A stretch of DNA of 64,000 nt, from the NCBI GenBank assembly GCA_013362805.1, contig JABFVL010000004.1, positions 1-64,000 of the forward strand, in the 5' to 3' direction. The notes beneath the pieces were generated by a model that was not told the origin of the DNA, ran no database searches, and worked only from the letters and a program-made list of their open reading frames with translations. Made by a program: the position numbers and the translations under genes. This document shows, one piece after another, positions 10,842 through 27,344 of the stretch; positions within the stretch are counted from its first letter, which is position 1; each line of letters starts with the position of its first letter. This DNA is from Mycobacteriales bacterium. Lineage in GTDB: Bacteria; Actinomycetota; Actinomycetes; Mycobacteriales; QHCE01.

Positions 10842-10938
10842 CCTGTTAAGGATAAACGGCGCGAGACGCTTTAATGCAGTCGCCTGACCTGCTTAGAACT
10901 CAGCACGAGACCTAGATCGCACGATCACGCATTAGGGG

Positions 10939-10971
10939 CTGTTGAGTGCCATTGATGATGGCACTCAACAG
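10939..10971 (-). terminator. Hairpin after the secretion-system cluster
   Basis: Arms of 14 bases (CTGTTGAGTGCCAT and its complement) enclose a five-base loop, four bases beyond the stop of the coupling-protein gene. No T-run follows on the minus strand. It probably ends the cluster transcript before guaA's promoter region. Confidence 0.6.
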
Positions 10972-10974
10972 ACG

Positions 10975-13689
10975 CTACTTGTTGTCCTCGTCTCGGTTCA
11001 CAGCCCAGCCCAATGCGGCAGTTCCCTGCACGTTAGCCCGACCGGGCTGAGGCTGTTGCTGATTATTCTGCTGCTGCCCATACTGCTGTTGCGCGGCTTG
11101 CTGAGCCGCCTGCTGCGCGGCATATTGTTGCGCTGCCTGTTGGGCCGCCAGTTGCTGCGCGTACAACTGCTGAGCCATCGCCGGGTCCATCGGTTGCGCG
11201 GCCCCAGGTTGACCGACGCCTGGGTTGAATTGGGGTTGCGCGTAGATCGGTTGCCCGGTAGCGGGATCAATAAGCGGTTGACCGGTTCGAGGATCGATGA
11301 TGGGTTGCGGCTGGCCCGCTGGGTAACCGGCGGGCGCGCCACCGGTTGTTGGAGCTTGTGCGGCGGGTTGGCCATAGACTTGCTGATTCGCCGGTTGGCC
11401 GTAGGTTTGCCCAGCTGGTTGACCGTAGACCTGTTGCCCGCTGGGTTGGCCATACTGGCCACTGGATTCTCCGTAGATTTGCTGATTCGCCGGTTGGCCG
11501 TAGGTTTGCCCAGCTGGTTGACCAGCCGGCGCCCCGTAGGTGGTTCCTTGTGGCGGCCCAGCTGGCGGGAACGGTCCGGGCATCGCGCCGTTTTCCCCGG
11601 GCAGTGCGACCGCGGGCATCCCCGAAGCTGGAAGGCTAGAGATTGGCTGGAAGTTCGGGATACCCGAAATGGGCGGCACTGAAATCGACGAGTCTGGCAT
11701 TGCGGAAACTTGGGCAGCGCCTGGATGCACCTGAGCGCCTGGGCGCACCTGTGCACCAGCCGCGACTAGCGGACTCATCGGCCGCCCGTCAGGGCCTAGC
11801 TGCAAGGGGTGCTGTCCGAGCGACATTTCCTTCGGTGGGGCCAAGGTCGTGGAAGCATCTCCGAGGTCGCGCGTTTCGCCGTTAATGATTTTGTTGACTC
11901 GGGCTTGACCAGCAGAGATTTCTTTGATGTCTTTGCGCTTCCAGTACGGAGTGAGCTTCGTTTCTACTGGACGGGCGGCTCGCGCGATGACCACAGCGCG
12001 TCCAAATTCGAGGGTTCGCAGTTCCTCAATTGAGAGCACTCGACGTTTCTGTTTCGAGATTGAGGTGCTTCGACCACCGGCGCCCTTGGAAACGCTCTTG
12101 GTTTTCTCGTCGACCTCACCCATCAGCTTGGAGATGTCTTCCAAGTCGCTGACGGTACCGGCGCCACCCATGATGACACGGATAGCTGAGGTGTCCCACA
12201 TGGTCGCCGCGTCGTCGTTACCCCACTTGGAGCGGGCCTGCGCCAACGACTGCAAGTAGATGTGCAGGGCGATCGAGAAACCACCGGAGTCACCCATGTA
12301 TCCGGGCAAGTTCGGCATTGGGGCGATGTGCGCAACCTCGTTCAGCTCCACCGTCAGCGGTGGATCGATACGCGAGTTCGGCATTTTGGAGGCGATCTTA
12401 CGAACTTGGTCGAAAATGTCTTCCATCATCGCGGTTACCAACGGGGCGACAGAACCATTCTTCTTTTCTTTTCCAAGCACGTACATAGTGTTGCGAGCCG
12501 AAACGAAACGTTTAACGTCGAAGATTTCGTCTGGGCCTGGCGAGCAGGATTCCAACACGTCGGGGTCAGCAAAGCAGTCCAGGGCGCGACGGACACCGGA
12601 CCACATGTTGCCTCGGGTTTCACCGTCGGCGGAGGCTCCGGATTCAAGTTCACCGGCCCAGCCTTGGGCGGCGCCGCGACCTTCGAACGCACGCAGAATT
12701 TGAATGGGTTCGGGGTTCGCCGGCTGAGTTGACCACCGGACCACGTCGGTGATGGTGCGTCCCGACAGCGCGGCGGCGTGGAAGTAGCAGCGCATGATGG
12801 CGGTGGCGACACCCGTCCAGTAGGACGCGTTCTGCACGCCTTCACCGACGCCAGCACCCGAGACGAAAGCCGAAGCGCGGTTAAGTGCGACAAGCGGGTC
12901 TTCGCAACCGTTGACTGGCGACCAGCGCATCTGAGATGGCCAGTTCGTCATCTTGTTGGGGTCGAACACCCACACTTCGCCGACTTTTTCTCTAGCGCTG
13001 ACGGTTGCCGCGAACATGTCGGCACGAGTGGTGGTGGCGATGCATGGGCCCATCGCGTCAATGATGTTTGGAATACAGAAATGGACGTCTTTACCTTGGC
13101 GGGGCGGGGCTACGACCAGCATGACGTCTTCTACGGAACAGTAGAGCTTTTGATACGACCGAACGTCTTTACCTAATGCATATCCGACTTCCAGCGGATC
13201 GAAGCTGCTGATCTTCTTGGCTTTATATGAGGGGCGAACTGATTTTGCTTTTTTCTTTACCGCTTTGCCCGACAGCAGCTTGTTTACTTCGCCACCATCG
13301 GCGAAGCCAAGTCGGAGGCGACGATATTCGCGGTGCCGACGGTAGCGAATAGCCGCGCGCACAATGTAATAACCAGCGAATCCGATGGGTACGAAAAGAA
13401 TCAGCACCAGGGGCAGCGCGAGCCAGACGGGCCCTACTTGGTCTTGGACTTCTTCGGGCCATCCAGCGGAGATATCGAAGGGATTTTTCACCCATTCGGT
13501 GAGCATGCGCAATGAGGGTTTGGACTCGGGCCATTCACCGTTGACGATGAACCCGGTGACTTGGCCCGAGAGCCAAAGCACAAAGCTCATTAACCAACCA
13601 AGCGCGAGCAGACAGATCCCGGCAAGGAAAACCGCACCGATCATCAGCGGGTCAAGGTCTGCGTCCTTGCCGGCGGCGGTGGCACTCAT
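10975..13689 (-). CDS. VirD4/TraG-like type IV coupling protein with Gln/Pro-rich tail
   Basis: This 904-residue protein is the last gene of the secretion-like cluster. Two membrane segments (about 13-40 and 87-112) precede a VirD4/TraG-type ATPase domain. The P-loop reads VVAPPRQGKDVH and the Walker B/TraG motif reads VELNEVAHIAPMPNLP. Both deviate: an Asp follows the P-loop Lys where Thr or Ser is usual, and an Asn replaces the first acid of D-E. Coupling proteins recruit substrates and feed them to the channel. From about residue 640 the chain is low complexity: proline-rich, then repeats of Y-G-Q-P and finally runs of Q-A-A-Q. Start ATG 13689 has GGGGGAG nine bases upstream. The family is clear; whether it hydrolyses ATP is open. 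Confidence 0.88.
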   Translation of the reverse strand: MSATAAGKDADLDPLMIGAVFLAGICLLALGWLMSFVLWLSGQVTGFIVNGEWPESKPSLRMLTEWVKNPFDISAGWPEEVQDQVGPVWLALPLVLILFVPIGFAGYYIVRAAIRYRRHREYRRLRLGFADGGEVNKLLSGKAVKKKAKSVRPSYKAKKISSFDPLEVGYALGKDVRSYQKLYCSVEDVMLVVAPPRQGKDVHFCIPNIIDAMGPCIATTTRADMFAATVSAREKVGEVWVFDPNKMTNWPSQMRWSPVNGCEDPLVALNRASAFVSGAGVGEGVQNASYWTGVATAIMRCYFHAAALSGRTITDVVRWSTQPANPEPIQILRAFEGRGAAQGWAGELESGASADGETRGNMWSGVRRALDCFADPDVLESCSPGPDEIFDVKRFVSARNTMYVLGKEKKNGSVAPLVTAMMEDIFDQVRKIASKMPNSRIDPPLTVELNEVAHIAPMPNLPGYMGDSGGFSIALHIYLQSLAQARSKWGNDDAATMWDTSAIRVIMGGAGTVSDLEDISKLMGEVDEKTKSVSKGAGGRSTSISKQKRRVLSIEELRTLEFGRAVVIARAARPVETKLTPYWKRKDIKEISAGQARVNKIINGETRDLGDASTTLAPPKEMSLGQHPLQLGPDGRPMSPLVAAGAQVRPGAQVHPGAAQVSAMPDSSISVPPISGIPNFQPISSLPASGMPAVALPGENGAMPGPFPPAGPPQGTTYGAPAGQPAGQTYGQPANQQIYGESSGQYGQPSGQQVYGQPAGQTYGQPANQQVYGQPAAQAPTTGGAPAGYPAGQPQPIIDPRTGQPLIDPATGQPIYAQPQFNPGVGQPGAAQPMDPAMAQQLYAQQLAAQQAAQQYAAQQAAQQAAQQQYGQQQNNQQQPQPGRANVQGTAALGWAVNRDEDNK
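11380..11424. repeat. 45-bp direct repeat, copy 1 (coupling-protein tail)
   Basis: Identical over 45 bases to 11479-11523, offset 99 bases (33 codons). It encodes the G-Q-P/Y-G-Q-P-A-N-Q-Q units of the disordered tail and is in frame. It probably arose by local duplication. Confidence 0.9.
11479..11523. repeat. 45-bp direct repeat, copy 2 (coupling-protein tail)
   Basis: Second copy of the unit at 11380-11424, with no mismatch across 45 bases. Copy-number change here would lengthen or shorten the tail in frame. Confidence 0.9.
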
Positions 13690-13792
13690 AACGTCGTTCT
13701 CCCCCAGGTGAATCTTGTGTTATGAGCCTACCCGGAGCCTTTACCCCAAGTGGCTCGGTTTAACGACTAAAAGCCCCATCCATAGGGAGGAA

Positions 13793-15154
13793 TCAGCTTG
13801 CCTTAACGGCGGATTTGGTCGTTTTTTCGTTTTTTTTACTTGTTGTCAAATCTGCATCCGCCGAAACCACGGTTTTCCGGAGCCTGTGCACAATTCGCCG
13901 AAGCTGCCCCACGGTATACACGGGGGGCCCAAACTTTATGCGGCGCGCGATCAAATCAGCATGGAGCAAGGTCATTTCCACCACCACTCCATCGGCACGA
14001 GACTGAGTAGCCAACAGGCCACGATTGGGCAACTTGCCCTCATGGACCATGACCAACGTGACAACTTCCAGCTCGGTAGCCGCCGCCAACGCCCGAGCGT
14101 TTTGTGCGATGACCCGCAGCTGATCGTCTGCCGGCTTACCCTCGACAAGCACCCGGCGCGGCCTACCCGCCGAGACGGTGATGTCGTTTCCGGCCTCCAA
14201 AACCGCGAGATAGAAAAGGCCAGTGGGGCCGGCAATCAAGGCATCCAACGCTTGAGAAGTCCCGTTCTCAACTGGATCGGCCTTTTCAGGAACCTTGGCT
14301 TCTTTTTCGCCCTCAGAATCGCCGTCCGATTCAGTCGCTCGCTTATCAGGCTCGGCGATCTTCACCTGGACAAAGCGTTCAAATCCCTGGCCAAGCTTGG
14401 CAAGATCCCGATACAGGGCGTACTGCCCCTCCGTGGCTTCTTCGTAATCCGCGCCTACCTTGGCCCGGCCCGTGAATTGATCTGCTGCTGCGAGCAACCA
14501 GCCACCGCGCCACAACACGTACACCGCCAGCACGAGCCACGCCGCATAGTAGGCAAAGTCCTTACTGACGATCGCGACGAGCATGATGGTCACCAGCGCT
14601 AAAGCCCACGAGGCGAGCAGCATCATCCATGGCCGACGAACTCGAAGCAATACCGCGGCCAGCCATACCGCGGCACCCGTGGACCAAAACAACGGCATGG
14701 TCGAGGTCAGATGGGCACTGAAATCTCCAGGCGCGCTGATTTCGGTGGTTATGAAAGCGGCTAATGGGCCCCCAGCACCCCAGAGCACCAACACGATCAG
14801 CAGCGAGACAATGCCTCGGTACAACATCCAGCAGACATACATCAAACCCAATGCCAGCGCGGCGATGACGGCCGAGGCGAAAAATTCGCGGTTGTTGAAG
14901 AACGCGAGGACGATTAATACGGCGACGCCAACGGTGGCGTACGTCCACGCCCGCGCGGTCCTTTTGCGAGGTTGACCAATCGGAACGGGCCGAAGTGCCC
15001 GCTCCGTGTGCACCGATTCGCGCACGTCGGCAACCAGGCTGCGCACCGGCGAGGAGATCCAACGCGCGAATTTCAGCCCAAAGCGCCCAGTTTTTCGCAG
15101 TGCGGAGCGCGCGGATGGCTTTTCGTCATCCCACACCCGACGTTTCTTTCTCAC
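13793..15154 (-). CDS. Membrane protein with NERD-like C-terminal domain, secretion cluster
   Basis: The 453-residue protein begins with a very basic ~65-residue segment. Six or so membrane helices follow to about residue 225 (for example YATVGVAVLIVLAFF and WMMLLASWALALVTIMLVAIV). The cytoplasmic part (about 235-453) contains LDALIAGPTGLFYLAVLEAG, which resembles the core of NERD nuclease-related domains (usually G-P-x-G-V-f-v-I-d-x-K). The usual catalytic D-x-K residues are not obvious. A Lys/Ser-rich tail ends the protein. Start GTG 15154 has only GGTG-like pairing. It lies between the VirB6-like and VirD4-like genes with short spacers, so it is probably a cluster component. The NERD assignment is tentative. 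Confidence 0.72.
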   Translation of the reverse strand: MRKKRRVWDDEKPSARSALRKTGRFGLKFARWISSPVRSLVADVRESVHTERALRPVPIGQPRKRTARAWTYATVGVAVLIVLAFFNNREFFASAVIAALALGLMYVCWMLYRGIVSLLIVLVLWGAGGPLAAFITTEISAPGDFSAHLTSTMPLFWSTGAAVWLAAVLLRVRRPWMMLLASWALALVTIMLVAIVSKDFAYYAAWLVLAVYVLWRGGWLLAAADQFTGRAKVGADYEEATEGQYALYRDLAKLGQGFERFVQVKIAEPDKRATESDGDSEGEKEAKVPEKADPVENGTSQALDALIAGPTGLFYLAVLEAGNDITVSAGRPRRVLVEGKPADDQLRVIAQNARALAAATELEVVTLVMVHEGKLPNRGLLATQSRADGVVVEMTLLHADLIARRIKFGPPVYTVGQLRRIVHRLRKTVVSADADLTTSKKNEKTTKSAVKAS

Positions 15155-15209
15155 TCCGCACCCACGATCACACTACGCGCTCTGGCTCTCTTACCTGTCG
15201 TCCCCGAGC

Positions 15210-18014
15210 TTAGAGCTGCCTTCCACCGCTGCCTCGACGACGTTGACGACGAGTTGGTGTCTGGACGTAGGTGACGTCGTTCGTCACGTCATCTACAACG
15301 CGTTCCAACCGCTGCTTACGGGCTGCGCGCCGCACTTCCGTGTCACGTTGACGCTCGACACGTGTCCGGCGCCTACCCTGCCGCACATTGACCTGCTCAT
15401 CGACGTACTGCTCATAGGCGGCCGTGCTGCGTGTGGCCCGAGTTTGCGTAGCCGAGGCTGGCAACGGCTTGTATCCGCGCTTGTCAATCTTGTTGCGGGT
15501 GTGCTGACCGGAAATAGCGCGGGCACGCTGCTGCTTGTCGAACATTGTGCCGTCCACTTGCATGCCGCCAGCGGCACCCTTCCCGCCGGCCCACATCGCC
15601 ATGGCACCACGACGCAAACCACCAACACGCTTGCCATCTTTGTCGCGCATGTTCTTTGTGCGCTTGAGGTTGTTGCGCATTCCGCTAGCAAAAAGGCGGC
15701 CGGCGCGTTGCGTCGCCATCAACCCTTTACCAGTCATCCCAGCGGCTTTGAACGGTGCGCGGGCGGCGCCACCTGCCATCTTCATGGACGCGGCATCCAC
15801 ACCACCAAGGCCCGCCATTTCCATGAGCTTCTTGCGGAAGGCCACACCCGCCATGGCTATACCCACCAACAAAGCTAGCTGGGCATACCACTGGAATGGC
15901 ATCGAGAGGATCGCGGCGTACAGCGTCATCAATAGGCCGACACCTATCCCCAACCCGATACGTTTCAAATAGGTCCCAAACCAAAGATTGGCCGCTTGCA
16001 AAAATATTCGAGTACCTATTTCTGGGATCAACCCGACAAGCATCACCAAAGGTGCCAGAACCGTCAAAATGACACACATCAGTTGAAGCACCAAATAAGC
16101 CATTGACACCGAAATAAGCACGCCACCAAAGGCAATCATCGCCACAAACATCAACAACACCGTCATGAATCGATGTTCTGGGTGGCGACCCGTGAAGTAG
16201 CTAAAAGATGTGCGGTGCTCATCTTTTACGGCATGCTCAAGCTTTGAATAGCTCTTTGAATCATTAGCATTGTCACCCTGCGCGATTTGGAACATATCTG
16301 GCAGGGCTTCGCCATGGTCGTAGTCTTTAGAAAACACGTCTTTCATGCGATCTTCGTTGGCAAATTCCTTCATCAACATTGAGAATGCGACCGCATTCGG
16401 ATGCGCGGCGATGATCGTCGGTTCTGGGTCACTTCCAAACAGGAAGTCACCCACCGCAGACAGCACTTTATATGCGCCTTCCAATATCGCGGTTGTGACC
16501 TGCTGCACCGTTGCGACAACTTCAACAACTTCGGCCGCGCCCCACGGATAGTTCTTCCGCAGATAGTCAGCGCCGGGCCCTTTCAACCAGCCCAAGAAAT
16601 CTTGATATTCATCAATAGATTGCTGAACCCAACTGTCCTTGGGCTTTCCTATTACCCCATGAATAGGAAGTTTTTCCTGTTCAAGCTTTTCAATCTGCGC
16701 GCGCGAATAGCCTTGCCAAGCGAGCGTGGCATACGCGAGTCGCAATCGCGCTTCATAATTCTGCTGGAACTGATCCGCGCTTAGTTTCTGACCGTTTACT
16801 GTTGCTTGTGCTTCAAGCGGGCCGAGCAGGCCCGTCGCCCACGGCGTAAATATCAGGGAGTGATAGAGCACCTGGCCGATGCAATCGACGGGCTCCACCC
16901 CCTTGAGTACCACACCGCTGCTGTCGTAGCAAGCCACGCCGTCTGATGTGTCTGGTGGTTGATTCGTCTGGAAAATATCGTCGTCATCTACAGCTTGCAG
17001 ATCACAACTATTCAGATCGGCATCGTCCGTAACACCCGCCGGGCCCACGGCACAGATCGCTTTTGAGAACGCGGCAAATACGTCACCAGTAATGCTGTTC
17101 GTGACGTCGTTCATTGACCTAACAGCCCACGAGGCATTAGGAGTAAACCAGGCAATAAAGCCAGCGATCAACGTCATGATCAAGAGTTTGCTCGCGAAGT
17201 CGGCAAGTCCCGTTTGTTTGATCAAAGCTCGATAAGCGAGCATCAACGCGGCAATGACGATCGCGAGGGCGGCGAGGTTGGCGAACAATCCAAGCTTCAG
17301 CGCGCGCACCATGTTGTCCAGCGCTGAGACTCCACCCGTGGTTTGCGGATCAACGAAAATGTTGACAATTGTCCCCTGGAATGTCCATTGGAAGAAGGTG
17401 ATCAGCGCTCCAGTGATATACACCGGGATTGTGAGCGCCATATCGGCCATTCCATTGAAAATCCAGTTACCCCACTCCCCGCATAGCAGCCAGAAGGGTT
17501 TCCATTTGATTCCAGAGATGCCGCGCTGAGCCCACGTGGTCTCGGCCCACTTCCCACTTTCATTATTTGGACGTTCCAGCCCGGTCGCATCATCCTCGGT
17601 GACGCCATAGGGAGCACCAAATGGAACCAGGTGGCCATGCGGGTCATCAGTGTCCACGTTGATGCGACGGAACTCGCACCATTTGTTGATCATGTCGTCC
17701 CAGGGCATCGCCTGAGCGGTATCACCAGTGCTTACAAAGCCGAATCCGGCGATAAGCGAAAGCAGCACGACCATGAAACTGCCGCGCCTAAATTGTGGAC
17801 CCATGCCCACCAAGCGGAGCCGGATCCGGCCAAGCCGGGTCTGACTCGACTTCGCCTCAGCTACGAGGTCATCGATAAATTCCGCATCGAGCTCGCCAGG
17901 GGCAACAACGCGCACTGGTGCGACATTGCCGCTCCCACTACGCACCGAGGCGCGGTGACGCGTGTGGGAATTACGTGTGGCGGCATCTGCTAAAACGAAG
18001 TCTTTTGCTGGCAT
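15210..18014 (-). CDS. VirB6/TrbL-like polytopic membrane protein of a type IV secretion-like system
   Basis: ATG 18014 is preceded by AAGGAC; an in-frame GTG at 18059 is an alternative. The 934-residue protein starts with a cytoplasmic region of about 75 residues and a first helix (FMVVLLSLIAGFGFV). Further helices include IPVYITGALITFFQWTF, LGLFANLAALAIVIAALML and a dense block around residues 640-760. A large extracytoplasmic loop carries five cysteines (SKAICAVGP, LNSCDL, GVACYD, PVDCIG). The C-terminal ~200 residues are basic and disordered (RRTRVERQRDTEVRRAARKQ). VirB6/TrbL proteins form the inner-membrane part of the translocation channel. Neighbours VirB4 and VirD4 support the call; sequence similarity alone is weak. 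Confidence 0.78.
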   Translation of the reverse strand: MPAKDFVLADAATRNSHTRHRASVRSGSGNVAPVRVVAPGELDAEFIDDLVAEAKSSQTRLGRIRLRLVGMGPQFRRGSFMVVLLSLIAGFGFVSTGDTAQAMPWDDMINKWCEFRRINVDTDDPHGHLVPFGAPYGVTEDDATGLERPNNESGKWAETTWAQRGISGIKWKPFWLLCGEWGNWIFNGMADMALTIPVYITGALITFFQWTFQGTIVNIFVDPQTTGGVSALDNMVRALKLGLFANLAALAIVIAALMLAYRALIKQTGLADFASKLLIMTLIAGFIAWFTPNASWAVRSMNDVTNSITGDVFAAFSKAICAVGPAGVTDDADLNSCDLQAVDDDDIFQTNQPPDTSDGVACYDSSGVVLKGVEPVDCIGQVLYHSLIFTPWATGLLGPLEAQATVNGQKLSADQFQQNYEARLRLAYATLAWQGYSRAQIEKLEQEKLPIHGVIGKPKDSWVQQSIDEYQDFLGWLKGPGADYLRKNYPWGAAEVVEVVATVQQVTTAILEGAYKVLSAVGDFLFGSDPEPTIIAAHPNAVAFSMLMKEFANEDRMKDVFSKDYDHGEALPDMFQIAQGDNANDSKSYSKLEHAVKDEHRTSFSYFTGRHPEHRFMTVLLMFVAMIAFGGVLISVSMAYLVLQLMCVILTVLAPLVMLVGLIPEIGTRIFLQAANLWFGTYLKRIGLGIGVGLLMTLYAAILSMPFQWYAQLALLVGIAMAGVAFRKKLMEMAGLGGVDAASMKMAGGAARAPFKAAGMTGKGLMATQRAGRLFASGMRNNLKRTKNMRDKDGKRVGGLRRGAMAMWAGGKGAAGGMQVDGTMFDKQQRARAISGQHTRNKIDKRGYKPLPASATQTRATRSTAAYEQYVDEQVNVRQGRRRTRVERQRDTEVRRAARKQRLERVVDDVTNDVTYVQTPTRRQRRRGSGGRQL

Positions 18015-18219
18015 GTGCGACAAGTCCTTAGATCCAGCTTCGGCGCGGGCACTTCGCACTCAAGGCGCGAGGGCACGGGGCGGTCCCGATGATGTTATCG
18101 AAGTCCCGAAGCCGTGACTCACGTTTGTGCCCACTGAGTAGACAACATTGACCAACCATTCGGCCAGCACCGTTAATAGGACATCACGCACAGTGAGATG
18201 GAAACGTCGCGATTAGAGA

Positions 18220-21105
18220 CTATTGATTATTATTCCAATTTGGTGGCGTCGCTGAACCACCGTAGGTAGTGCTTGAACGCTGAGTGGGCGGAGCACTAGG
18301 AACGGCCGGTGGACCCGAATGCGCTGGCGGCACCGAAGGCAACGCCGGAACACTCGGAAGCTGCGCCGCGGTCAATTGACGGGCATCAATTTCTGCTTGC
18401 AGCGCGACGGCTTCTTCAGCCGAGTTCGCCACACCCAACACCTTGCCGGACTCATCGGTGATGATTCGTCGCGCGGCCGACTGAACACGGCCCTCACCAT
18501 CGTCTGGGGTGGAGTCAAACGCGACAATGACATCTGGCAGATACGACATGTCAACACGCATCGTGCCAACGTGCCCCTTGATGTCACGCATGATGCACTC
18601 GGAATTCTTACCCGTGGGCAACGTCGCGATGATGTTGCGATGCTCCTCGGAATCTGAGACGCGCAACAATTCCAAGTCAGCCAGAATCTCATCGGGATCC
18701 TCTGACCGGAACACGAACATAGTCGTCAAACAGTTCTTGACGTCCTCAGCCAGCAAGTCCTTAGCGTTCTGTGAAACGAGGACCATCGCGGTATTTCGAG
18801 ATCGACCCAATCGAGCTACCTCGGCAACGAGCTGGGCGCCTTGAGCGGTCTGGGTGATTGCCCACGCCTCGTCGATAATCAGCGCCTTGGGACCGGTGTA
18901 CAGCGGGTCAGAGACCAGCGTGCGCGCATAGTGGGTGACCAGGTACAACAAAGTCACCGATAGGCGCTGGGCATACGTGTATCGGTCCTGATCAGTAGAA
19001 GCACTGGGCAGTGACAATCCGGCCAGGGTGATGATCGTCAAACGACCTTGGGCGATCTTGACCGATGACGACGCGTGCGAGAAGCAGAGGTTACCCAGCG
19101 GAAGTTCAGAAATAACCTGCAAGAGGTTACCCGCCGAACGCGCGACTGTTTTCTGCTGCTCAGAAAATTGCGTTTGCACACCAGTGAGCGCCTCCACGCC
19201 CCCGGCAAGCAGCACATCGACCACTTTTCGAAGGTTGGGGTCAGGCTGAACCGCAACAAAACGAATAGCGGAAACAATGACCGTTTCACGTTCAGCGGTC
19301 ATTTCACCGCCGAGCAGCAAACGCATCGTTTCCATCGCCAGCAGGGTTCCCTCTTCCCGTGAGTCCGCTAGCGAGAACGGGTCGAGCAAACCAGCGAGTT
19401 TCGCACCCAACTCCAAAATACGGACATCACCCAGGCCCTCAATCGTGGCAAGGCCCTTCGCGTCACCCTTCGGGTCAAGCAATACCGTGGTGATACCGCG
19501 CATCGCTGTTTGGTATGCCGTGGTCAACGTGGTGAAGGTCTTACCACCACCGGGTGCACCCACGATGGCCACACCTGGGGGCTTGTTGTTTCGTGGGGCA
19601 TACAGCGGATCAAAGTGCACGATCTCTTCAGAACGACCAGTGGTTCGGCCCAAATAGGGCCCTTCCCCATCGCCCAGCGAGTTGGAAGCCGTGAACAGGC
19701 CGGCTGAGACCGCTTCCATCTCCTGCACTTGACGGTAGGCGCGCACATTCAACCGTGGCTTATCACCTGGGAACTGCTCTGTGAAAAGGCGCAGCTGATC
19801 GTTCGGCGTCCACACCACATCGATACCAATGTCACGGTAGTGCTCAATGATCACCTGGCAGCGACGAGTCAGTTCGTCCGGGTCGGGCGCAGAAATAAGG
19901 AATCGACCCGCGCCAAAGATGAGGAATCGCCGCGACCTTTCAACTTCGGCTTCCAAGTCTTTACCCGCGTAGAAAGCATCGGCCACACCGGTCGGCACCT
20001 CGGCGCCGGCCTCTTCGATGTGCCGCTGCTGGGCGGAAACCTTCTGTACTTGCTTCTCAACTTCTTTCTTGGCTTTGCTCGGTGGAGCGATGTCGAAGTG
20101 GCCCGAGAACTCCACCGCGAAACCAAGCTCTGGGTCTTCGGCGTGGTGAATCCACGGGTTGCCATCCCAGGTTTCCATCTCTAGCGGCATGCGGCTGATG
20201 CACAGAGTGGCCACGTAGCTTTCGTAGAAGCGCTCCGGAGGTTCAACGTTGTCCGGATCCATCAAGAACGCATCATCAAGCTTGACGTAGTCCCAGTTAG
20301 GCTGGGTGATTTTGAGGTAGTACGGGCTCGAGGACTGATCGATGTGGCCCTCGATGAGATGTTGTACCTCGCCACGACCCCAAGGCTGATTTTCCATTGC
20401 CGGAGCGGGTGGCGTGGGCATTTCCGGGTGCATGTGGTGACGGAACAACCAGGCTATTTCGTCCGAGGTCGCCGGAACTCCACCAAAAGCGCTGCCTCGA
20501 ATAAGGCGCTGAATCGGCACAGCTGCCGCACGCCAGCGCGCGATTTCTTTGTCTTTGATCGCGTCGTCTTCACCAACCACGGCATCGGCCGCCCGGTTGA
20601 AGAAGCGCTCAATGGTTTGCCAAGCGCCCTTGAGCGCAGTGGTCGCTTCGGTGGAGCGATGGCCTAGGCGAACACCGAGATACACCTCTTTTTGCAGGAA
20701 GTGTTCGTGCCACAGGTGTTCTTGCTGAGCAACCAACAAGTCTCCCCACCCAGGAGCGGGGTTACGGGTGCGTTTGTCGAGTTGTTCCGCCCAGTCCGCG
20801 ATGTTGTAACCACGGAACGCGGTCTTGAGGTGAACACGTACATCATTCAGGCCAGCGAATGCGTGAGCGAACGATGAGATCAGCCGGTCCCACTCTTCTG
20901 GAGTCTTGAATTCCACGGATACCGTTGGCAAACGCAAATACGTCCACGCCTCGGTTTCGGAAAGCAGAATCGTGTCATCGAAGTAACGCACGCTCAAGCG
21001 CTCCGGCAGCGCTTTGCGGTCCTTCTGTTTCTTTTCGGTGCCTTGGTACTGCGCCACGACAGCGGCGATGATGCCGCCGAGAACGAGGATAATTAGGAAA
21101 GCCAT
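18220..21105 (-). CDS. VirB4/TraC-like ATPase of a type IV secretion-like system
   Basis: The 961-residue protein has one N-terminal membrane helix (AFLIILVLGGIIAAVVAQY), a VirB4 N-terminal domain to about residue 480, and an ATPase domain. That domain has Walker A GAPGGGKTFTTL, LLDPKGDAKGL and Walker B ALIIDEAWAI, then VLVSQNAKDLL. Catalytic residues are intact, unlike those of the coupling protein. VirB4 ATPases power assembly of the channel and substrate transfer. The C-terminus is a proline-rich tail (PSVPPAHSGPPAVPSAPP). ATG 21105 lies three bases after the tcpE stop, which indicates translational coupling. Confidence 0.92.
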   Translation of the reverse strand: MAFLIILVLGGIIAAVVAQYQGTEKKQKDRKALPERLSVRYFDDTILLSETEAWTYLRLPTVSVEFKTPEEWDRLISSFAHAFAGLNDVRVHLKTAFRGYNIADWAEQLDKRTRNPAPGWGDLLVAQQEHLWHEHFLQKEVYLGVRLGHRSTEATTALKGAWQTIERFFNRAADAVVGEDDAIKDKEIARWRAAAVPIQRLIRGSAFGGVPATSDEIAWLFRHHMHPEMPTPPAPAMENQPWGRGEVQHLIEGHIDQSSSPYYLKITQPNWDYVKLDDAFLMDPDNVEPPERFYESYVATLCISRMPLEMETWDGNPWIHHAEDPELGFAVEFSGHFDIAPPSKAKKEVEKQVQKVSAQQRHIEEAGAEVPTGVADAFYAGKDLEAEVERSRRFLIFGAGRFLISAPDPDELTRRCQVIIEHYRDIGIDVVWTPNDQLRLFTEQFPGDKPRLNVRAYRQVQEMEAVSAGLFTASNSLGDGEGPYLGRTTGRSEEIVHFDPLYAPRNNKPPGVAIVGAPGGGKTFTTLTTAYQTAMRGITTVLLDPKGDAKGLATIEGLGDVRILELGAKLAGLLDPFSLADSREEGTLLAMETMRLLLGGEMTAERETVIVSAIRFVAVQPDPNLRKVVDVLLAGGVEALTGVQTQFSEQQKTVARSAGNLLQVISELPLGNLCFSHASSSVKIAQGRLTIITLAGLSLPSASTDQDRYTYAQRLSVTLLYLVTHYARTLVSDPLYTGPKALIIDEAWAITQTAQGAQLVAEVARLGRSRNTAMVLVSQNAKDLLAEDVKNCLTTMFVFRSEDPDEILADLELLRVSDSEEHRNIIATLPTGKNSECIMRDIKGHVGTMRVDMSYLPDVIVAFDSTPDDGEGRVQSAARRIITDESGKVLGVANSAEEAVALQAEIDARQLTAAQLPSVPALPSVPPAHSGPPAVPSAPPTQRSSTTYGGSATPPNWNNNQ

Positions 21106-21108
21106 GGC

Positions 21109-21537
21109 CTACCGCCCTATCTCGCGTGGCTCGCGTCCAAAGTCCTTTGAGGCTTCCGGCACCCAGCGGCTCGCGGTGAGAATGAGCGGGCGATCGTCTC
21201 GCGCACCCGTCAAGCTGGCAAGCTTCTTTGGTTCACCCATTCGGGTGGCCATTGACGATGCCCACTCTTCAACGGTCTTTTCGTGTTTGACAGGCGTATC
21301 GGCCTTCATCACGGCCAAAATCGGTGGGCCGAGCATGATGACCGCGGCGATACCCGTGTTACCTACCAGGCTAGGTAGCCCAATGCAGAGCATCGCTGGA
21401 ACCCATACGCCAGCTACGAGCGCACCCGCGATGAGTTGAGGCACGGTGATGCCGCCCTTGATGGGCACTTTGATGTCATCAAACGCGTAAATCTTGGTGC
21501 GTAGATTCCAGGTGCTGGTGAAGGTGCGAACTATCAT
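21109..21537 (-). CDS. TcpE-family conjugal transfer membrane protein
   Basis: ATG 21537 is chosen because AGGAGG stands five bases before it; a GTG one codon upstream is in frame. The 142-residue protein shows the TcpE pattern: RTFTSTWNLRTKIYAFDDIKVP followed by two helices (TVPQLIAGALVAGVWVPAMLCIG and TGIAAVIMLGPPILAVM). A polar C-terminal region follows, with RPLILTASRWVPEA. TcpE proteins are membrane components of Gram-positive conjugation machines such as Tn916 and pCW3. It is followed directly by the VirB4-like gene. Confidence 0.82.
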   Translation of the reverse strand: MIVRTFTSTWNLRTKIYAFDDIKVPIKGGITVPQLIAGALVAGVWVPAMLCIGLPSLVGNTGIAAVIMLGPPILAVMKADTPVKHEKTVEEWASSMATRMGEPKKLASLTGARDDRPLILTASRWVPEASKDFGREPREIGR

Positions 21538-21612
21538 CACTGCCTCCTCTCACGGAGCGCCCCGCTATTGCAGGAGAAAATATGTGCGGAATCTGGGAGA
21601 TACAGCTGGGAT

Positions 21613-21639
21613 GCTCGCGGGCCGTAATGACCCGCGAGC
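21613..21639 (-). terminator. Hairpin after the small two-helix gene of the secretion cluster
   Basis: Nine-base arms GCTCGCGGG/CCCGCGAGC with a nine-base loop lie 9 bases beyond the stop at 21648. No strong T-run follows. A leaky terminator here would let the small upstream protein be made in excess over the downstream ATPase genes. Confidence 0.55.
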
Positions 21640-21647
21640 AAACAACT

Positions 21648-21962
21648 TTACTGCGGGTTGAGCCAGTCCTTCATGGTCGAACCGAGCCAACCGAGGATGT
21701 CCTCGCCCCACATGATGAGGGCATAGACGGCCACAGCTAGTACAAGGAAGCCAATGAACCCAGCGAGAGATTTTAGTTCACCGAAGAGGAATTTCAGGCC
21801 GATGATACCGATCAACACTGCGGCGATAGGCGCGAAGAAGTCTTTCAACTCTGTCGCGAAGTTGTCACCATCGATCTTTTTGTCATCGGCCAGGTTAGCG
21901 ATGTGTTCGTGGCTGGGCAGGTAGGCCTGCACCGTGTCCAGCGCCTGCATCATGGTCGACAT
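21648..21962 (-). CDS. Small two-helix membrane protein (VirB2/TcpD-like position)
   Basis: The 104-residue protein has a polar N-terminal half (ALDTVQAYLPSHEHIANLADDKK). Two adjacent helices follow (FFAPIAAVLIGIIGLKFLFGEL and SLAGFIGFLVLAVAVYALIMWG) and a short amphipathic end. There is no obvious signal peptide. Size, two helices and position between tcpC and tcpE fit a VirB2/TcpD-like subunit, but no diagnostic motif is visible. AGGAG stands 10 bases before ATG 21962. It has its own 150-base upstream spacer and a downstream hairpin, which points to separate expression control. Confidence 0.75.
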   Translation of the reverse strand: MSTMMQALDTVQAYLPSHEHIANLADDKKIDGDNFATELKDFFAPIAAVLIGIIGLKFLFGELKSLAGFIGFLVLAVAVYALIMWGEDILGWLGSTMKDWLNPQ

Positions 21963-22114
21963 GTCATTTTCTCCTGTATCTCTTCCCGTGCCGCCCGAAC
22001 TTCCCGAACGTCACCTGGTCCATTCCGCCTGCTACCCGTACCGTGCCGGTGAAGCACAGTTCCGGCATATAGGCCGTTTGTCTCTTATTCCGTAACCGGC
22101 CAGACATCATATGG

Positions 22115-23947
22115 TCATGACGTCGGTTGCTGCTGATCCTGGTTCTCCCCCGAGGGACTCTGGCTCGCGCCATCAGAAACGTTCTCACTCGCTTCATCCT
22201 CATCGGTCTTGCCAGGAGGCCCACCCTTTTTCGGTGCCACATTCTCGTCAGGCACAGCACCAGTAATGTCATTGACGATCCACTGATCCTGTTTGTCATC
22301 GCTCAACACTGTGAGTCGATACCACTGCGAGGTAGTGACCCCACCACTATCGGGGATTTCCCAGGTCACCAGAGCGAAGACCTCCAGTTTCCCTGATTCA
22401 TCGGTCTCGTACGTCTCCAGGTCATCCAAGTTTCTAAATAGCAGCTTGGAATCTAGGCCGCGCTTTATGGTGCCTTCGGTGGTGGTGTATTCGCGAAGAG
22501 TCTTCCGATCTTCCGAACCATAAGCGGCAAAGAAGGACTTCAGGTCTTCTTCTAGCCCACGTGATTCATCGGGAGATAGCGTCGCCTCGGTTCGGCTGTC
22601 CTTACGGTTTTCAACCTTGGCCGCGGCAGTGGTTTCACAAGCGACGAATGACGGCAATTGCAGAATCGCGAAGTGACCTTTGCGGTCGGTGTACACGCTC
22701 AAGTCCACGCAACGCAGTTGTGGGCCCGTTGAGGAACCGGGGCTCACCATGACAACGCCATAGCGCAGAACAACGTTATTCGCGTCCAAAACTTTGCTGC
22801 CGCTAGGAATCACCTGAGCAACGGCCTGTTTGCCCGCGCCGGCCAACCCATCCTGCTCATTGGCGATCTGATCGCCTGGGAAGTAGTAGCTCAAAGCAAC
22901 TCGGCGAATTTCGTCAGCGTCTTCGACGGTTCGGTCGTAGGTGTAATAGGTCGAGAGGAACTGCGATCCATAGCCTTCCGCTCCGGAAAGCGGGAAGTTG
23001 TATTCAGCGGGAAGCTTCGGTGGGTCGTACAAGGCTTGACCAATCATGCGCTGGAAGCCATTGATGACAAGTACAAAAAGCAATAGACCGACAAGGCCGA
23101 GAAACGCGAATCGCTGCCAACGACCCCCGGCAAAGGCACCGGAGGTGAGCGAAGATTTCTTTTTCTTCTGCGCGTTTTTGACCGCCGCGGGCACAACGTT
23201 GCCGTCTTCTACTGCGAATCCTGGAACAGGTTGCAGCAAGGCCCCGCCGGTGGCATCCAAGCGATGGCCGAGGTTCCCATCAGCTGCCAGGGGCTGCAGA
23301 CCGACCTCTTGATCCTTCTTGCCTTTTTTGCCCTTTTTCTTGTTCTTTTTCTTACCTTTGCTATCGGTGTCGGCTTGCTCTGGCTGGGCGGCTTGCTGCG
23401 CATACGCCGCCGCCAACGCGGGATCGAGGCCATACAAGCTCTGCTGTTGATCTAGGGGTGTTTGCGGAGCGAGTGGAGCGATAGGCGGACCCGAAGGGGG
23501 TGGTACCGGCGCCGATGTAGGCGGTTGAGCGGAGGGCAGAGCGGATGTGGCGGGCATAGCTGAAGGCATGCTCGGCACTGAATAACCGGCGGGCGCCGAC
23601 GTGGGGAAGGTCGCTTGCGGGGGAACAATTGGAGCGCTTGTCACCGAAGGCATCGCCGAAGGAATGACCGGTGGCATGGGGCCCGCCGGTAAACCGCTCG
23701 TTGGCACCGAGGCGGAACCACTTGGCACGGCAGATGACGGAGCTACCCCAGCTACTGTGGCGCGCCCAGTTGGGTGGTTGGTTTGGCCGGGCACAGACGC
23801 ACCGCCACGTGCGGGGGCCGCGGAGTTCGGCGGAGGCACCGAAGCGGATCCGGTGCCTCGGTATACAGCACTAGAACGCCCACTCGCTGGCTGGGCGTTG
23901 GGCGTCTGCTCGTCGACGTGCTCATTGCTGTCCGCAGCGTCGCTCAT
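22115..23947 (-). CDS. TcpC-family (VirB8-like) conjugal transfer protein
   Basis: The 610-residue protein has a long Pro/Ala/Ser-rich cytoplasmic N-terminus (to about 200) and a Lys-rich block (KGKKKNKKKGKKGKKD). One membrane helix follows (FAFLGLVGLLLFVLVINGF, about 275-295). The outer part (about 320-560) matches the TcpC layout of two NTF2-like VirB8-type domains: QFLSTYYTYDRTVEDADEIRR in the first, and EDLKSFFAAYGSEDRKTLREY in the second, ending W-x-V-N-D-I-T-G. TcpC is an assembly factor of the conjugation channel. The C-terminus is acidic/Gln-rich. The start at ATG 23947 is supported by a G-rich upstream stretch (GGCGGTGACAG). Confidence 0.85.
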   Translation of the reverse strand: MSDAADSNEHVDEQTPNAQPASGRSSAVYRGTGSASVPPPNSAAPARGGASVPGQTNHPTGRATVAGVAPSSAVPSGSASVPTSGLPAGPMPPVIPSAMPSVTSAPIVPPQATFPTSAPAGYSVPSMPSAMPATSALPSAQPPTSAPVPPPSGPPIAPLAPQTPLDQQQSLYGLDPALAAAYAQQAAQPEQADTDSKGKKKNKKKGKKGKKDQEVGLQPLAADGNLGHRLDATGGALLQPVPGFAVEDGNVVPAAVKNAQKKKKSSLTSGAFAGGRWQRFAFLGLVGLLLFVLVINGFQRMIGQALYDPPKLPAEYNFPLSGAEGYGSQFLSTYYTYDRTVEDADEIRRVALSYYFPGDQIANEQDGLAGAGKQAVAQVIPSGSKVLDANNVVLRYGVVMVSPGSSTGPQLRCVDLSVYTDRKGHFAILQLPSFVACETTAAAKVENRKDSRTEATLSPDESRGLEEDLKSFFAAYGSEDRKTLREYTTTEGTIKRGLDSKLLFRNLDDLETYETDESGKLEVFALVTWEIPDSGGVTTSQWYRLTVLSDDKQDQWIVNDITGAVPDENVAPKKGGPPGKTDEDEASENVSDGASQSPSGENQDQQQPTS

Positions 23948-24255
23948 CTGTCACCGCCCCCATCTTGGCTCGTTGCGCCCCTATAACTACCAGCTCGCCC
24001 ATATCCGATGGGGCGAGCATCGAGAATTAGTCGCATTACAAAACTCTCCGCATTGCGACGCAGACCCTCAGTTAGGGACGAATACTCCACAACGCCCATC
24101 CCAACATTTTTGCGCCGGGACAGGAATGGTCTAAATGGCGGAGAAGTGCCTCCGCTATCCCGACTCACTTCTACCGCGAAACTATCCACCCAAAGGCCTT
24201 TTCTCGCGCTTTTGCCAAGAAACCGCCCAGTCATGGCACGTTGCTCGGTAAGCTG
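23948..24255. other. 308-bp gap inside the secretion cluster
   Basis: No convincing coding frame. A minus-strand frame at 23944-24234 overlaps the tcpC start and has a composition unlike neighbours, so I do not call it. A small GCGGAG/CTCCGC hairpin is at 24138-24155. The region may hold a promoter for tcpC and downstream genes. Confidence 0.6.
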
Positions 24256-25536
24256 CTACGCGTTTTTCGGCGGATCAGTGTCCTCAGGCTCCGCGGGTTC
24301 AGCCTTAATAGGCTGACCATACGTCGTGGCGCGAACCGGTGTTGACGCACGAGCAACCTGAACTGTGCCCGTTGAAGGAGCCGGACTCACTGAGCTAGCC
24401 GGATACCCTTCGGCCGGGGCCTCTGGAGGAAGAGGCTGAGCTGCCCAACCGTAACCAGGCACCGCACCAGCAGAGGCGCTAGCCGGTTCAGGATCGTCAT
24501 TGATCGCCGCGGCGCGAGGTGTTGGTACCCGCCGAGGCTCCTCGTACATGTAGTCGACATCTTCGTCGTCGTATTCGTCGTACTCATCATATTCGTCGTC
24601 GAAGTCGTCCCACTCGCCGAATACTTCATCAGCGAGACCCAACAGGGCGCTTACTTGCGTCTGCGTTTCGGCACGAAGCCGAACCCGTTCGGTATCGTGG
24701 TCAGCCGAGTTCGTATCGGCCGTTTCTGGCGCGGCTTCAGCCGCTTCTTTTGCCCGGTCAGCCCGCAACGCGGCCACAGCCGCTTGACTCGCTGCCTTCA
24801 AAATGTCGTCGGCTTCGGCTAGAACTTCGGTGTATTCCTCAGGTTCAAGAACCTGCAATCCTCGAGCGTCCAACTCAGCTCGCGCTTCGATCGCATCCGT
24901 TAAGTCTTCGGCCAGATCTAGTGGGACTTCAACCGAGTTCGGCGGACGTTTATGCATGAAGTTCAAGAAGTAGTAGCAGGCAACAGCCAGCGCCAAGAAA
25001 ACAACAGGAAAGCTCCACGAAAGCAGAGTCGCCCCGCCGCGAAGGGTTTGCATTATGGCCAGGATGAGGGTGATGAGCGAAACTCCGCCGAGCACCAACA
25101 CACCACGGTCCAAAAGCGCGGCCGTGCGCTCCCGCTGCTCAGAAAGTCGAGGATCTTCCGGCAGACCAACATAGGCGCTTTCGGTGCCCGGAGGCAGTGC
25201 GACCTCGAGCGGTTCCCATTGTTCGTCATCTTCGTAAACCACTTGTGCCTGCAATGTGCTGGGACCTTGTTGCGGCACAGCTGAAGAATCTGGAATTGCC
25301 ACTGTGGCGGCGTCTTGCGGGGTCACAGCGCCAGGCATCGGAGGCGGTGGCGCTGAATACGCCGGTGGCGCCGCGTTGTCGATAGGAGGCGGAGGGGAAG
25401 CGGTGCCAGAAACACGGAAAGTTCCCGCCGCTGTTGGATCACTAGAAGTGAACGCTGCAGGAGGCGCGCTGGGGTTAGCAGCTAAGCCTGGGAAGGTTTC
25501 CGGCTCGCCTTCCGCAGGAGAATGAGGTCCCGTCAT
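24256..25536 (-). CDS. Uncharacterised membrane protein heading the secretion cluster
   Basis: The 426-residue protein has a Pro/Ala-rich N-terminus (about 1-95). An ordered segment (LQAQVVYEDDEQWEPLEVALP) precedes two membrane helices (about 143-162 and 172-190). An Ala/Glu-rich probable coiled coil runs from about 205 to 290. Next comes an extreme acidic/aromatic run (DDFDDEYDEYDEYDDEDVDY), and then a Pro/Ala-rich tail. I do not recognise a family. AGGAGG stands nine bases before ATG 25536. It is the first minus-strand gene after the divergent gene at 25684, so it probably opens the transfer-like operon. The acidic tail could bind a basic partner, such as the basic tail of the VirB6-like protein; this is speculation. 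Confidence 0.75.
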   Translation of the reverse strand: MTGPHSPAEGEPETFPGLAANPSAPPAAFTSSDPTAAGTFRVSGTASPPPPIDNAAPPAYSAPPPPMPGAVTPQDAATVAIPDSSAVPQQGPSTLQAQVVYEDDEQWEPLEVALPPGTESAYVGLPEDPRLSEQRERTAALLDRGVLVLGGVSLITLILAIMQTLRGGATLLSWSFPVVFLALAVACYYFLNFMHKRPPNSVEVPLDLAEDLTDAIEARAELDARGLQVLEPEEYTEVLAEADDILKAASQAAVAALRADRAKEAAEAAPETADTNSADHDTERVRLRAETQTQVSALLGLADEVFGEWDDFDDEYDEYDEYDDEDVDYMYEEPRRVPTPRAAAINDDPEPASASAGAVPGYGWAAQPLPPEAPAEGYPASSVSPAPSTGTVQVARASTPVRATTYGQPIKAEPAEPEDTDPPKNA

Positions 25537-25683: not shown

Positions 25684-26196
25684 ATGGTACGCAGGCAACG
25701 CTCACATGGCCGTGATGACCGTCCTCGTCCACGCCCCGGGTTCGAGGGAGTGGTGATCAGCTCCCGCCCAGCATGGCTCAAACGGCAGGGTAAACCGGCG
25801 AAATACTACGACACCCGGATCGAATATGACGATGGGTACGAATTGGGCTTCGCTCAACTCTTTTTGCCAGCCTCCTCCCATCTTCCAGTGGGCGCGGCCG
25901 TTCGCGTTGTTCGTAGCCGTCAGGGCGAACTCAGCGTGCTGCCAGACAGGCAGCAACTGCGAGAAGCTAAACCGGGCGAGTCGTGGAAGAAACCCGACCT
26001 TAAAGCTGTGCTTTATGCCTTGATCGCTGGTGCGGTGTTGATCGGCGCACTGGTCGCCTCGGTGACCATGCTGCTGAACAATAGCCAGGACAAAATTACT
26101 GACCTCATCAAAGAGGGCCCCACGACAAGCCCGGGGTCGAGTGGAACTCCCACACCGACCCCGACTATTACCCCCTCGCCAACGCAAACGCCTTAA
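25684..26196 (+). CDS. Uncharacterised single-helix membrane protein
   Basis: The 170-residue protein starts at ATG 25684 after GGAGTGAAGAG. An Arg-rich N-terminus leads to a beta-rich domain (residues about 20-95: FEGVVISSRPAW, then YYDTRIEYDDGYELGF and VGAAVRVVRSRQGELSVLP). A single helix follows (AVLYALIAGAVLIGALVASVTMLL, about 107-130) and a Pro/Thr-rich outer tail. The layout resembles small DUF3592-like or OB-like membrane proteins, but I cannot name a family. It is divergent from the secretion cluster, with 147 bases between, and its stop codon overlaps that of guaB3. Confidence 0.75.
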   Translation: MVRRQRSHGRDDRPRPRPGFEGVVISSRPAWLKRQGKPAKYYDTRIEYDDGYELGFAQLFLPASSHLPVGAAVRVVRSRQGELSVLPDRQQLREAKPGESWKKPDLKAVLYALIAGAVLIGALVASVTMLLNNSQDKITDLIKEGPTTSPGSSGTPTPTPTITPSPTQTP

Positions 26197-27311
26197 GCGT
26201 CGAGTACCAGATCAACTTTCTGGAACTCTTTGACATCGCGGTACCCAGCTTTACCCATGGCGCGAGCCAAAGCTCCGAATAGGTTGGTGGTGCCCCACCC
26301 ATCGCTGGCCGGGCCGTAAAGCACAGTTTCCATGTCAGCCTGTGGCCAATCCATATCCGGTGCGATGATGTGACCGCGTGGCAACTTCGGATGCGAAGCC
26401 GACGACAACCACCACGCGCCCAGACCAGGAGCTTGAGCGGCCTCGGCCAGTGGTTCACCCACCATTACCGCGTCAGCTCCACAAGCGATCGCTCGAGCGA
26501 TATCACCCGATGTCGACACGCCACCATCTGCGATCACATGCACGTACCGGCCACCGGTTTCGTCAAGGTAGTCACGTCGTGCGGCCGCGGCATCGGCGAT
26601 AGCTGTCGCCATGGGAACCCGAATGCCAAGGACGTCGTCGTTGGAGGCATAGCTGCCAGCGCCCATTCCGACGATGACACCAGCCGCTCCAGTGCGCATG
26701 AGGTGCAAGGCGGTCTGATAGTCAGCGCAGCCACCCACAACAACAGGAACATCCAAGTCCGCGATGAACTGTTTGAGGTTCAGCTCTTCCCCATTTTTTG
26801 ACACATGCTCGGCCGAGACAATGGTTCCTTGAATGACGAGCAGATCCACGCCAGCGGCTACCGCAACTGGAGCCAGGGCCTCAGTGTGCTGTGGCGACAC
26901 CCGAACGGCGACGACTCCAGCACCGGCCTCACGCATTTCGGTGATTCGTTGCCCGATCAATTCGGGCTGGACAGGAGCGGTGTAAAGCTCTTGCAGGCCC
27001 GCGGTGTCTTGCTCGGAAGACGCCCATTTTTGGAGGCGTTCCCCTGCGTCGGTGTACCGCGTCCAAATTCCTTCGGCGTTCAACACGGCAAGTCCGCCCA
27101 ACTGGCCGATCAGCCCTGCCGTGGCTGGGCTCACCGTGGCGTCAGAAGGGTGCGCCACCATTGGGATTTCGAAGGTGAAGGCGTCGATTTGCCACGACAG
27201 GTTGACATCGTCAATATCGCGGGTGCGCCGTGAAGGCACAATCGCGACCTGGCTCAAGCCATATGCGCGGCGAGCATTTCGCCCGATTCCGATCTCGACA
27301 TATTCCCGCAT
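26193..27311 (-). CDS. guaB3: GuaB3 family IMP dehydrogenase-related protein
   Basis: The 372-residue protein has the IMPDH/GMP-reductase barrel without CBS domains. ATG 27311 fits the AGGAAGA site better than the in-frame GTG at 27317. Recognisable parts are VAIVPSRRTRDIDDVNLSW at the start, VVVGGCADYQTALHLM, and the HVIADGGVSTSGDIARAIACGADAVMVG stretch. In IMPDH and GMP reductase the phosphate loop carries the catalytic Cys (G-P-G-S-x-C-T-T); here the matching stretch reads GMGAGSYASNDDVLG, with no Cys. GuaB3 proteins sit beside guaB2 across actinobacteria, and their exact activity is unclear. guaB2 is 33 bases upstream, so they probably share a transcript. Confidence 0.93.
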   Translation of the reverse strand: MREYVEIGIGRNARRAYGLSQVAIVPSRRTRDIDDVNLSWQIDAFTFEIPMVAHPSDATVSPATAGLIGQLGGLAVLNAEGIWTRYTDAGERLQKWASSEQDTAGLQELYTAPVQPELIGQRITEMREAGAGVVAVRVSPQHTEALAPVAVAAGVDLLVIQGTIVSAEHVSKNGEELNLKQFIADLDVPVVVGGCADYQTALHLMRTGAAGVIVGMGAGSYASNDDVLGIRVPMATAIADAAAARRDYLDETGGRYVHVIADGGVSTSGDIARAIACGADAVMVGEPLAEAAQAPGLGAWWLSSASHPKLPRGHIIAPDMDWPQADMETVLYGPASDGWGTTNLFGALARAMGKAGYRDVKEFQKVDLVLDA

Positions 27312-27344
27312 TCGCACTCTTCCTTAAGCCTCGATCGGATTTGC

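Follow-up and report, generated by a model that had tools for sequence, protein, structure and literature searches.

Nearly all known type IV secretion systems (T4SSs) of Gram-positive bacteria move DNA, and the conversion of some of them to other tasks is a long-standing question (PMC12857230). In the MPF_FA systems (Tcp of pCW3, Tn916, ICEBs1 and the Bacillus plasmid NZ_CP154917), the genes are ordered TcpC, small protein, TcpE, VirB4 and VirB6, with an extended VirB6 of 700-900 residues. Chromosomal VirB4-type clusters without a nearby relaxase are classified as 'MOBless' T4SSs, which have been argued to be mostly non-conjugative and are mostly thought to export protein (Guglielmini et al., 2011, PMC3158045). 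Protein export was also reported for the 89K T4SS of Streptococcus suis, a Gram-positive VirB1/3/4/6/8/D4 set located on a pathogenicity island (review PMC12857230). The chromosomal membrane-protein cluster cmdABCDEF (SCO4126-4131) of Streptomyces coelicolor contains a VirB4-like ATPase and has relatives in plasmid transfer, but it is not used for plasmid transfer, and its loss disturbs sporulation and chromosome segregation (PMC2782261).

Here, a window of 64,000 nucleotides from a Mycobacteriales bacterium (contig JABFVL010000004.1) was analyzed, which contains a T4SS-like cluster between guaA and guaB3. As the best explanation, it is tentatively proposed that this cluster is a chromosomal relaxase-less MPF_FA (Tcp/Tn916-like) T4SS that derives from conjugation and is kept for a non-conjugative job. 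The locus is a defined chromosomal candidate for a converted T4SS, with cultured carriers in Fodinicola and Virgisporangium and a residue-level prediction for VirD4.

Gene content and surroundings of the cluster

The eight consecutive minus-strand genes described in the initial annotation could all be identified between guaA and guaB3 (positions 10975-25536), together with a divergent ninth gene that had been overlooked (Table 1). Significant profiles supported the VirD4, VirB4, TcpC and VirB6 labels.

Table 1. Features of the cluster and its flanks in the window.
Feature	Position	Strand	Description
guaA	9276..10841	-	Flanking marker; GATase + GMP_synt_C
20-bp inverted repeat	10933..10977	.	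Terminator-like; follows virD4 and separates the cluster from guaA
VirD4-like coupling protein	10975..13689	-	904 aa; Pfam T4SS-DNA_transf 2.7e-26, TraG-D_C 5.6e-22
mem453	13793..15154	-	Membrane protein, 4-6 helices, then cytosolic alpha/beta domain; family-specific
VirB6-like channel protein	15210..18059	-	949 aa, extended type; NCBIfam CD3337/EF1877 6e-25
VirB4-like ATPase	18220..21105	-	961 aa; Pfam AAA_10 8e-52, TcpF-type profile 3e-62
TcpE family / VirB3-like	21109..21540	-	Pfam TcpE 0.004, PrgI 0.011, both weak
Small two-helix protein	21648..21962	-	104 aa; TcpD-position
TcpC / VirB8-like	22115..23947	-	Pfam TpcC 9.5e-16
mem426	24256..25536	-	Proline-rich N-terminus, two TM helices, acidic C-terminus; family-specific
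One-TM protein	25684..26196	+	170 aa, T/P-rich outer tail; divergent ninth gene
guaB3	26193..27317	-	Flanking marker; IMPDH family

From tcpC to virB6, the genes have the same order and, with TcpE as a putative member, belong to the same families as in the MPF_FA systems, and the VirB6 is likewise extended. The components that define MPF_FA systems include a VirB4/TcpF-type ATPase with Walker motifs, a VirB8-like TcpC and an extended VirB6, all of which were found; in the alignment, the Walker A (GAPGGGKT) and Walker B (IIDEAW) motifs of VirB4 are intact. TcpC, the sole copy in the assembly, has a long disordered N-terminus, one TM helix and an extracytoplasmic domain (328-558), and VirD4 is composed of two N-terminal TM helices, a core (128-600) and a P/Q/A/G-rich tail (600-904). 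The TcpE profile match (0.004) lies under the curated cut-off, but the size of the gene fits and it immediately precedes virB4, which is the canonical position; identities with relatives at the same place are 48-58% for TcpE and 45-56% for the 104-aa protein.

In comparison with MPF_FA systems, the cluster lacks a relaxase and a hydrolase, has a VirD4 with GKD and LNE motifs, and contains mem426, mem453 and the divergent 170-aa gene as additional components. Both membrane proteins were found in all five clusters that were compared (see below), with 27-41% identity for mem426 and 24-37% for mem453. A profile search with mem453 gave no significant Pfam family. The previous assignment of this protein as NERD-like was not upheld as a nuclease identity, since only one of five family members matched NERD (E=0.23) and the AlphaFold model was poor (pLDDT 51); mem453 is possibly NERD-like. 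Homologs of the 170-aa gene were present at the same divergent place in the genome G001 and in Virgisporangium, and none was found in Fodinicola. As it accompanies the cluster even in Virgisporangium, whose copy occupies a different genomic location, this gene is part of the module rather than of the gua locus. VirB6 relatives occur in all clusters, and in G001 (C43:39591-50941; L035/L036) three VirB6-like genes were observed, one of them after virD4.

The identity of the neighbors as guaA and guaB3, and that of guaB, was supported by Pfam, and guaB3 orthologs were present in 58 of 61 relatives. The other neighboring genes examined have housekeeping or metabolic functions (relA/spoT, lipid genes, an ECF sigma factor and glmS-, glmM- and rpoA-type genes), and the GC content of the cluster equals that of its surroundings. 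No integrase, transposase or relaxase domains were detected among the neighbors in a domain scan, and no att-like repeats flank the cluster in a repeat search covering 8-28 kb; the features of an integrative conjugative element were thus lacking at the locus and just outside it. A profile search identified no peptidoglycan hydrolase in the cluster. Genome-wide, relaxases of the two families searched, PF08751 (TrwC) and PF03432 (Relaxase), were absent from the assembly, which is ∼94% complete. The initial annotation, which had noted no relaxase, integrase, hydrolase or flanking repeats, was therefore confirmed for the locus. With a VirB4, other T4SS genes and no relaxase nearby, the cluster resembles the MOBless T4SSs; that class is defined by absence alone, whereas the window has a specific locus, gene set and set of coupling-protein motifs.

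Distribution and descent

Close relatives of VirB4 (71-76% identity) were identified in G001, an Antarctic MAG that represents a second genus in the family of the window genome, in two Fodinicola genomes (G005 and G032) and in Virgisporangium aliadipatigenens. In an even sample of the order, 4 of 399 genomes were carriers, and three other carrier loci were recovered when 84,980 species genomes were scanned by means of just two short peptide motifs. The nearest VirB4 proteins outside this clade (39-42% identity) are encoded on the Nocardiopsis plasmids NZ_CP099838 and NZ_CP074136 and at a chromosomal locus of Nonomuraea gerenzanensis. These systems share TcpC- and TcpE-like genes with the window, and a counterpart of the 104-aa protein adjoins them. 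The two Nocardiopsis systems differ in being plasmid-borne and in having their own SLT protein, and no VirD4 relative was present in the Nocardiopsis and Nonomuraea stretches that were read (L082, L084, L083). Because such close cousins lie on plasmids, the wider VirB4 family is considered mobile.

In the window genome, G001 and G005, the cluster is located in the same orientation between guaB3 and guaA, and thus in two families, as Fodinicola belongs to a different family. However, this interval is T4SS-free in 19 other relatives (those with both genes on the stretch examined), where it spans 33 bp to 8.7 kb, and in G020, the sister lineage of Fodinicola, it comprises 403 bp and is empty of T4SS genes. 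In Virgisporangium, no T4SS genes were found between guaB3 and guaA either; there the cluster adjoins miaA, and virD4 follows after ∼18 kb.

In every pair of carriers, the identity of VirB4 tracks that of guaA (e.g., 76/75, 73/74, and 71/75), as would be expected after long residence, and divergence is far more rapid in TcpC, VirB6 and the membrane proteins than in VirB4. Between the two Fodinicola genomes, dN/dS values of 0.12 for VirB4 and 0.15-0.48 across the remaining genes of the cluster (VirD4, 0.23) indicated purifying selection; we infer that the frameshifts in G032 are due to its poor assembly (74% complete). Trees of the gua genes rejected a clade of the carriers with the gua site (AU p=0.0046). 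The possibility that homologous recombination had carried over the entire gua region was dismissed, as the two carrier families do not come together in the gua gene trees, and the VirB4 tree was set aside as an arbiter between one and several insertions, as the internal branches of its carrier clade are unresolved. Because the gua trees reject the carrier clade and its branching in the VirB4 tree is unresolved, a single old ancestral insertion that was later lost many times and recurrent insertion at this interval are both possible. The earlier suggestion that such clusters may be vertically kept in related actinobacteria is thus supported by the shared gua site and by VirB4 tracking guaA, but not by the patchy distribution, the different site in Virgisporangium, the empty interval in G020 and the gua trees.

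Coupling-protein motifs and function of the cluster

VirD4 carries the Walker A motif PPRQGKD and the Walker B motif LNE in all six carriers, i.e., in the window, G001, G005, G032, Virgisporangium and an orphan copy in G605. In contrast, GK[G/S/T] and LDE are present in all 31 outside homologs, of which a class-wide search contributed 28 and plasmids the other three. The canonical signature of a coupling-protein motor (GK[G/S/T] and DE) is therefore missing in the carrier clade (6/6), and both magnesium-site positions are changed. From these residues, the ATPase activity of VirD4 may be lost or changed, but the D in Walker A and the N in Walker B could also represent a compensating swap that leaves VirD4 active. 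An AF2 model of the VirD4 core was not used for Foldseek, as its nucleotide-binding region lay below pLDDT 50. In one Fodinicola genome, the VirD4 ORF (L038:13582-18003) encodes 1473 aa, with an 850-residue tail past the ATPase core that is unmatched in the sister genome. The orphan copy (G605:C404, L118:4008-6107, minus strand) comes from a genome of another taxonomic order and lies near a transposase-like ORF, and no VirB4 of the matching clade was found in G605.

Because relaxase and mobility genes are lacking and active-site residues in the VirD4 substrate gate are altered, the cluster has probably, judged by sequence, been repurposed for a job other than self-transfer. Protein export is favored as this job, since protein export is the task mostly ascribed to MOBless systems and one Gram-positive case was reported; the likeness to that case, S. 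suis 89K, is taken from the description in the review and not from sequence. In the proposed mechanism, VirB4 with its intact ATPase motifs would drive assembly and transport, and VirB3, VirB6 and VirB8 would form the envelope channel. Instead of being a fast DNA motor, VirD4 may serve as a receptor for substrates or as a slow switch, and would most likely feed protein into the channel. The patchy distribution, the second site in Virgisporangium and the plasmid-borne cousins of VirB4 count against a relaxase-less, non-conjugative T4SS as the explanation. Whether the system has permanently switched from conjugation, with VirD4, which lacks the canonical Walker residues (K-T/S/G to K-D and D-E to N-E), as a receptor and VirB4 as the sole motor, is more doubtful. 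The domestication proposed initially thus has in its favor the missing mobility genes, the shared gua site, purifying selection and the VirD4 motif change, and against it the patchiness, the second site and the gua trees.

Fodinicola and Virgisporangium are hyphal-type actinomycetes, which would suit a domesticated envelope machine that serves the morphology or chromosome handling of its own cell. A precedent is cmdABCDEF, a chromosomal VirB4-like cluster that cannot substitute for plasmid transfer genes and is required for sporulation (PMC2782261). It differs from the window in comprising six genes, for which no VirD4 was described, and its genes are of the SCO6880 type according to the comparison in that study (PMC2782261). 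Orthology to cmdABCDEF was provisionally set aside, as the window VirB4 had no BLAST similarity to a plasmid ATPase of the SCO6880 type, which was compared in place of S. coelicolor CmdB. This lack of similarity also argues against a role like that of cmd, and the rarity in the order (4/399) is ill-suited to a core developmental function, which makes such a role unlikely.

Similarly low odds are given to a working conjugation channel that acts in trans on the chromosome or on other elements and mobilizes them with a relaxase encoded elsewhere. The complete MPF set in Fodinicola and Virgisporangium, including a hydrolase, and the plasmid-borne cousins of VirB4 are in line with such a channel, and the relaxase search, which spanned two families, leaves room for it. 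However, the assembly contains no TrwC- or Relaxase-family protein, the coupling-protein motifs differ from those of all 31 outside homologs, and T4CP genes usually sit beside the relaxase gene (PMC12857230). That an integrative element once inserted at the gua locus and is now decaying there as a remnant is improbable: patchiness, the loss of the hydrolase in the lineage of the window, the separation of virD4 from the other genes in Virgisporangium and the orphan virD4 of G605 would fit decay, but all eight reading frames are uninterrupted in the window, in G001 and in G005, gene order is kept over ∼70% protein identity, GC content is that of the surroundings, and the strong purifying selection already weakens this explanation. 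A viral origin was discarded, as no relative was found in IMG/VR, and a defense system was rejected as well, as the single PADLOC match, of VirB4 to mad8, was read as shared P-loop ATPase similarity and the other parts were unmatched.

Hydrolases and a second relaxase-less cluster

The clusters of Fodinicola and Virgisporangium encode an M23 plus SLT/NlpC-type hydrolase downstream of virB6, corresponding to the VirB1-like component of MPF_FA systems. This hydrolase is absent from the clusters of the window and G001, and it was lost from the lineage of the window. There, the wall might be opened by a hydrolase acting in trans, e.g., an M23 protein encoded in a second T4SS-like cluster of the window genome; that this protein serves both clusters is speculation.

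The second cluster (G000:C27:45468-53298; L041/L042) is also relaxase-less and encodes two small membrane proteins, VirB4b (1117 aa), VirB6b, a 186-aa protein and the M23 protein. No VirD4 relative was found there, and in Fodinicola no second VirB4 was detected at E 1e-10 in a search that found one elsewhere. The cluster is flanked by ribD-ribE-ribBA-ribH on one side and infC-rplT-rlmB-pheST on the other. This arrangement is syntenic in several genomes of two families. The same order with both flanks was observed in G001, G012, G025, and G044, it was observed with the ribH side in G035, and in three genomes from another family the genes follow this order at a different location. In the VirB4 tree of the second cluster, the genomes group by family. 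For vertical domestication, the second cluster makes a stronger case than the one at the gua locus, and it indicates that relaxase-less T4SS remnants in these actinobacteria can be passed on vertically.
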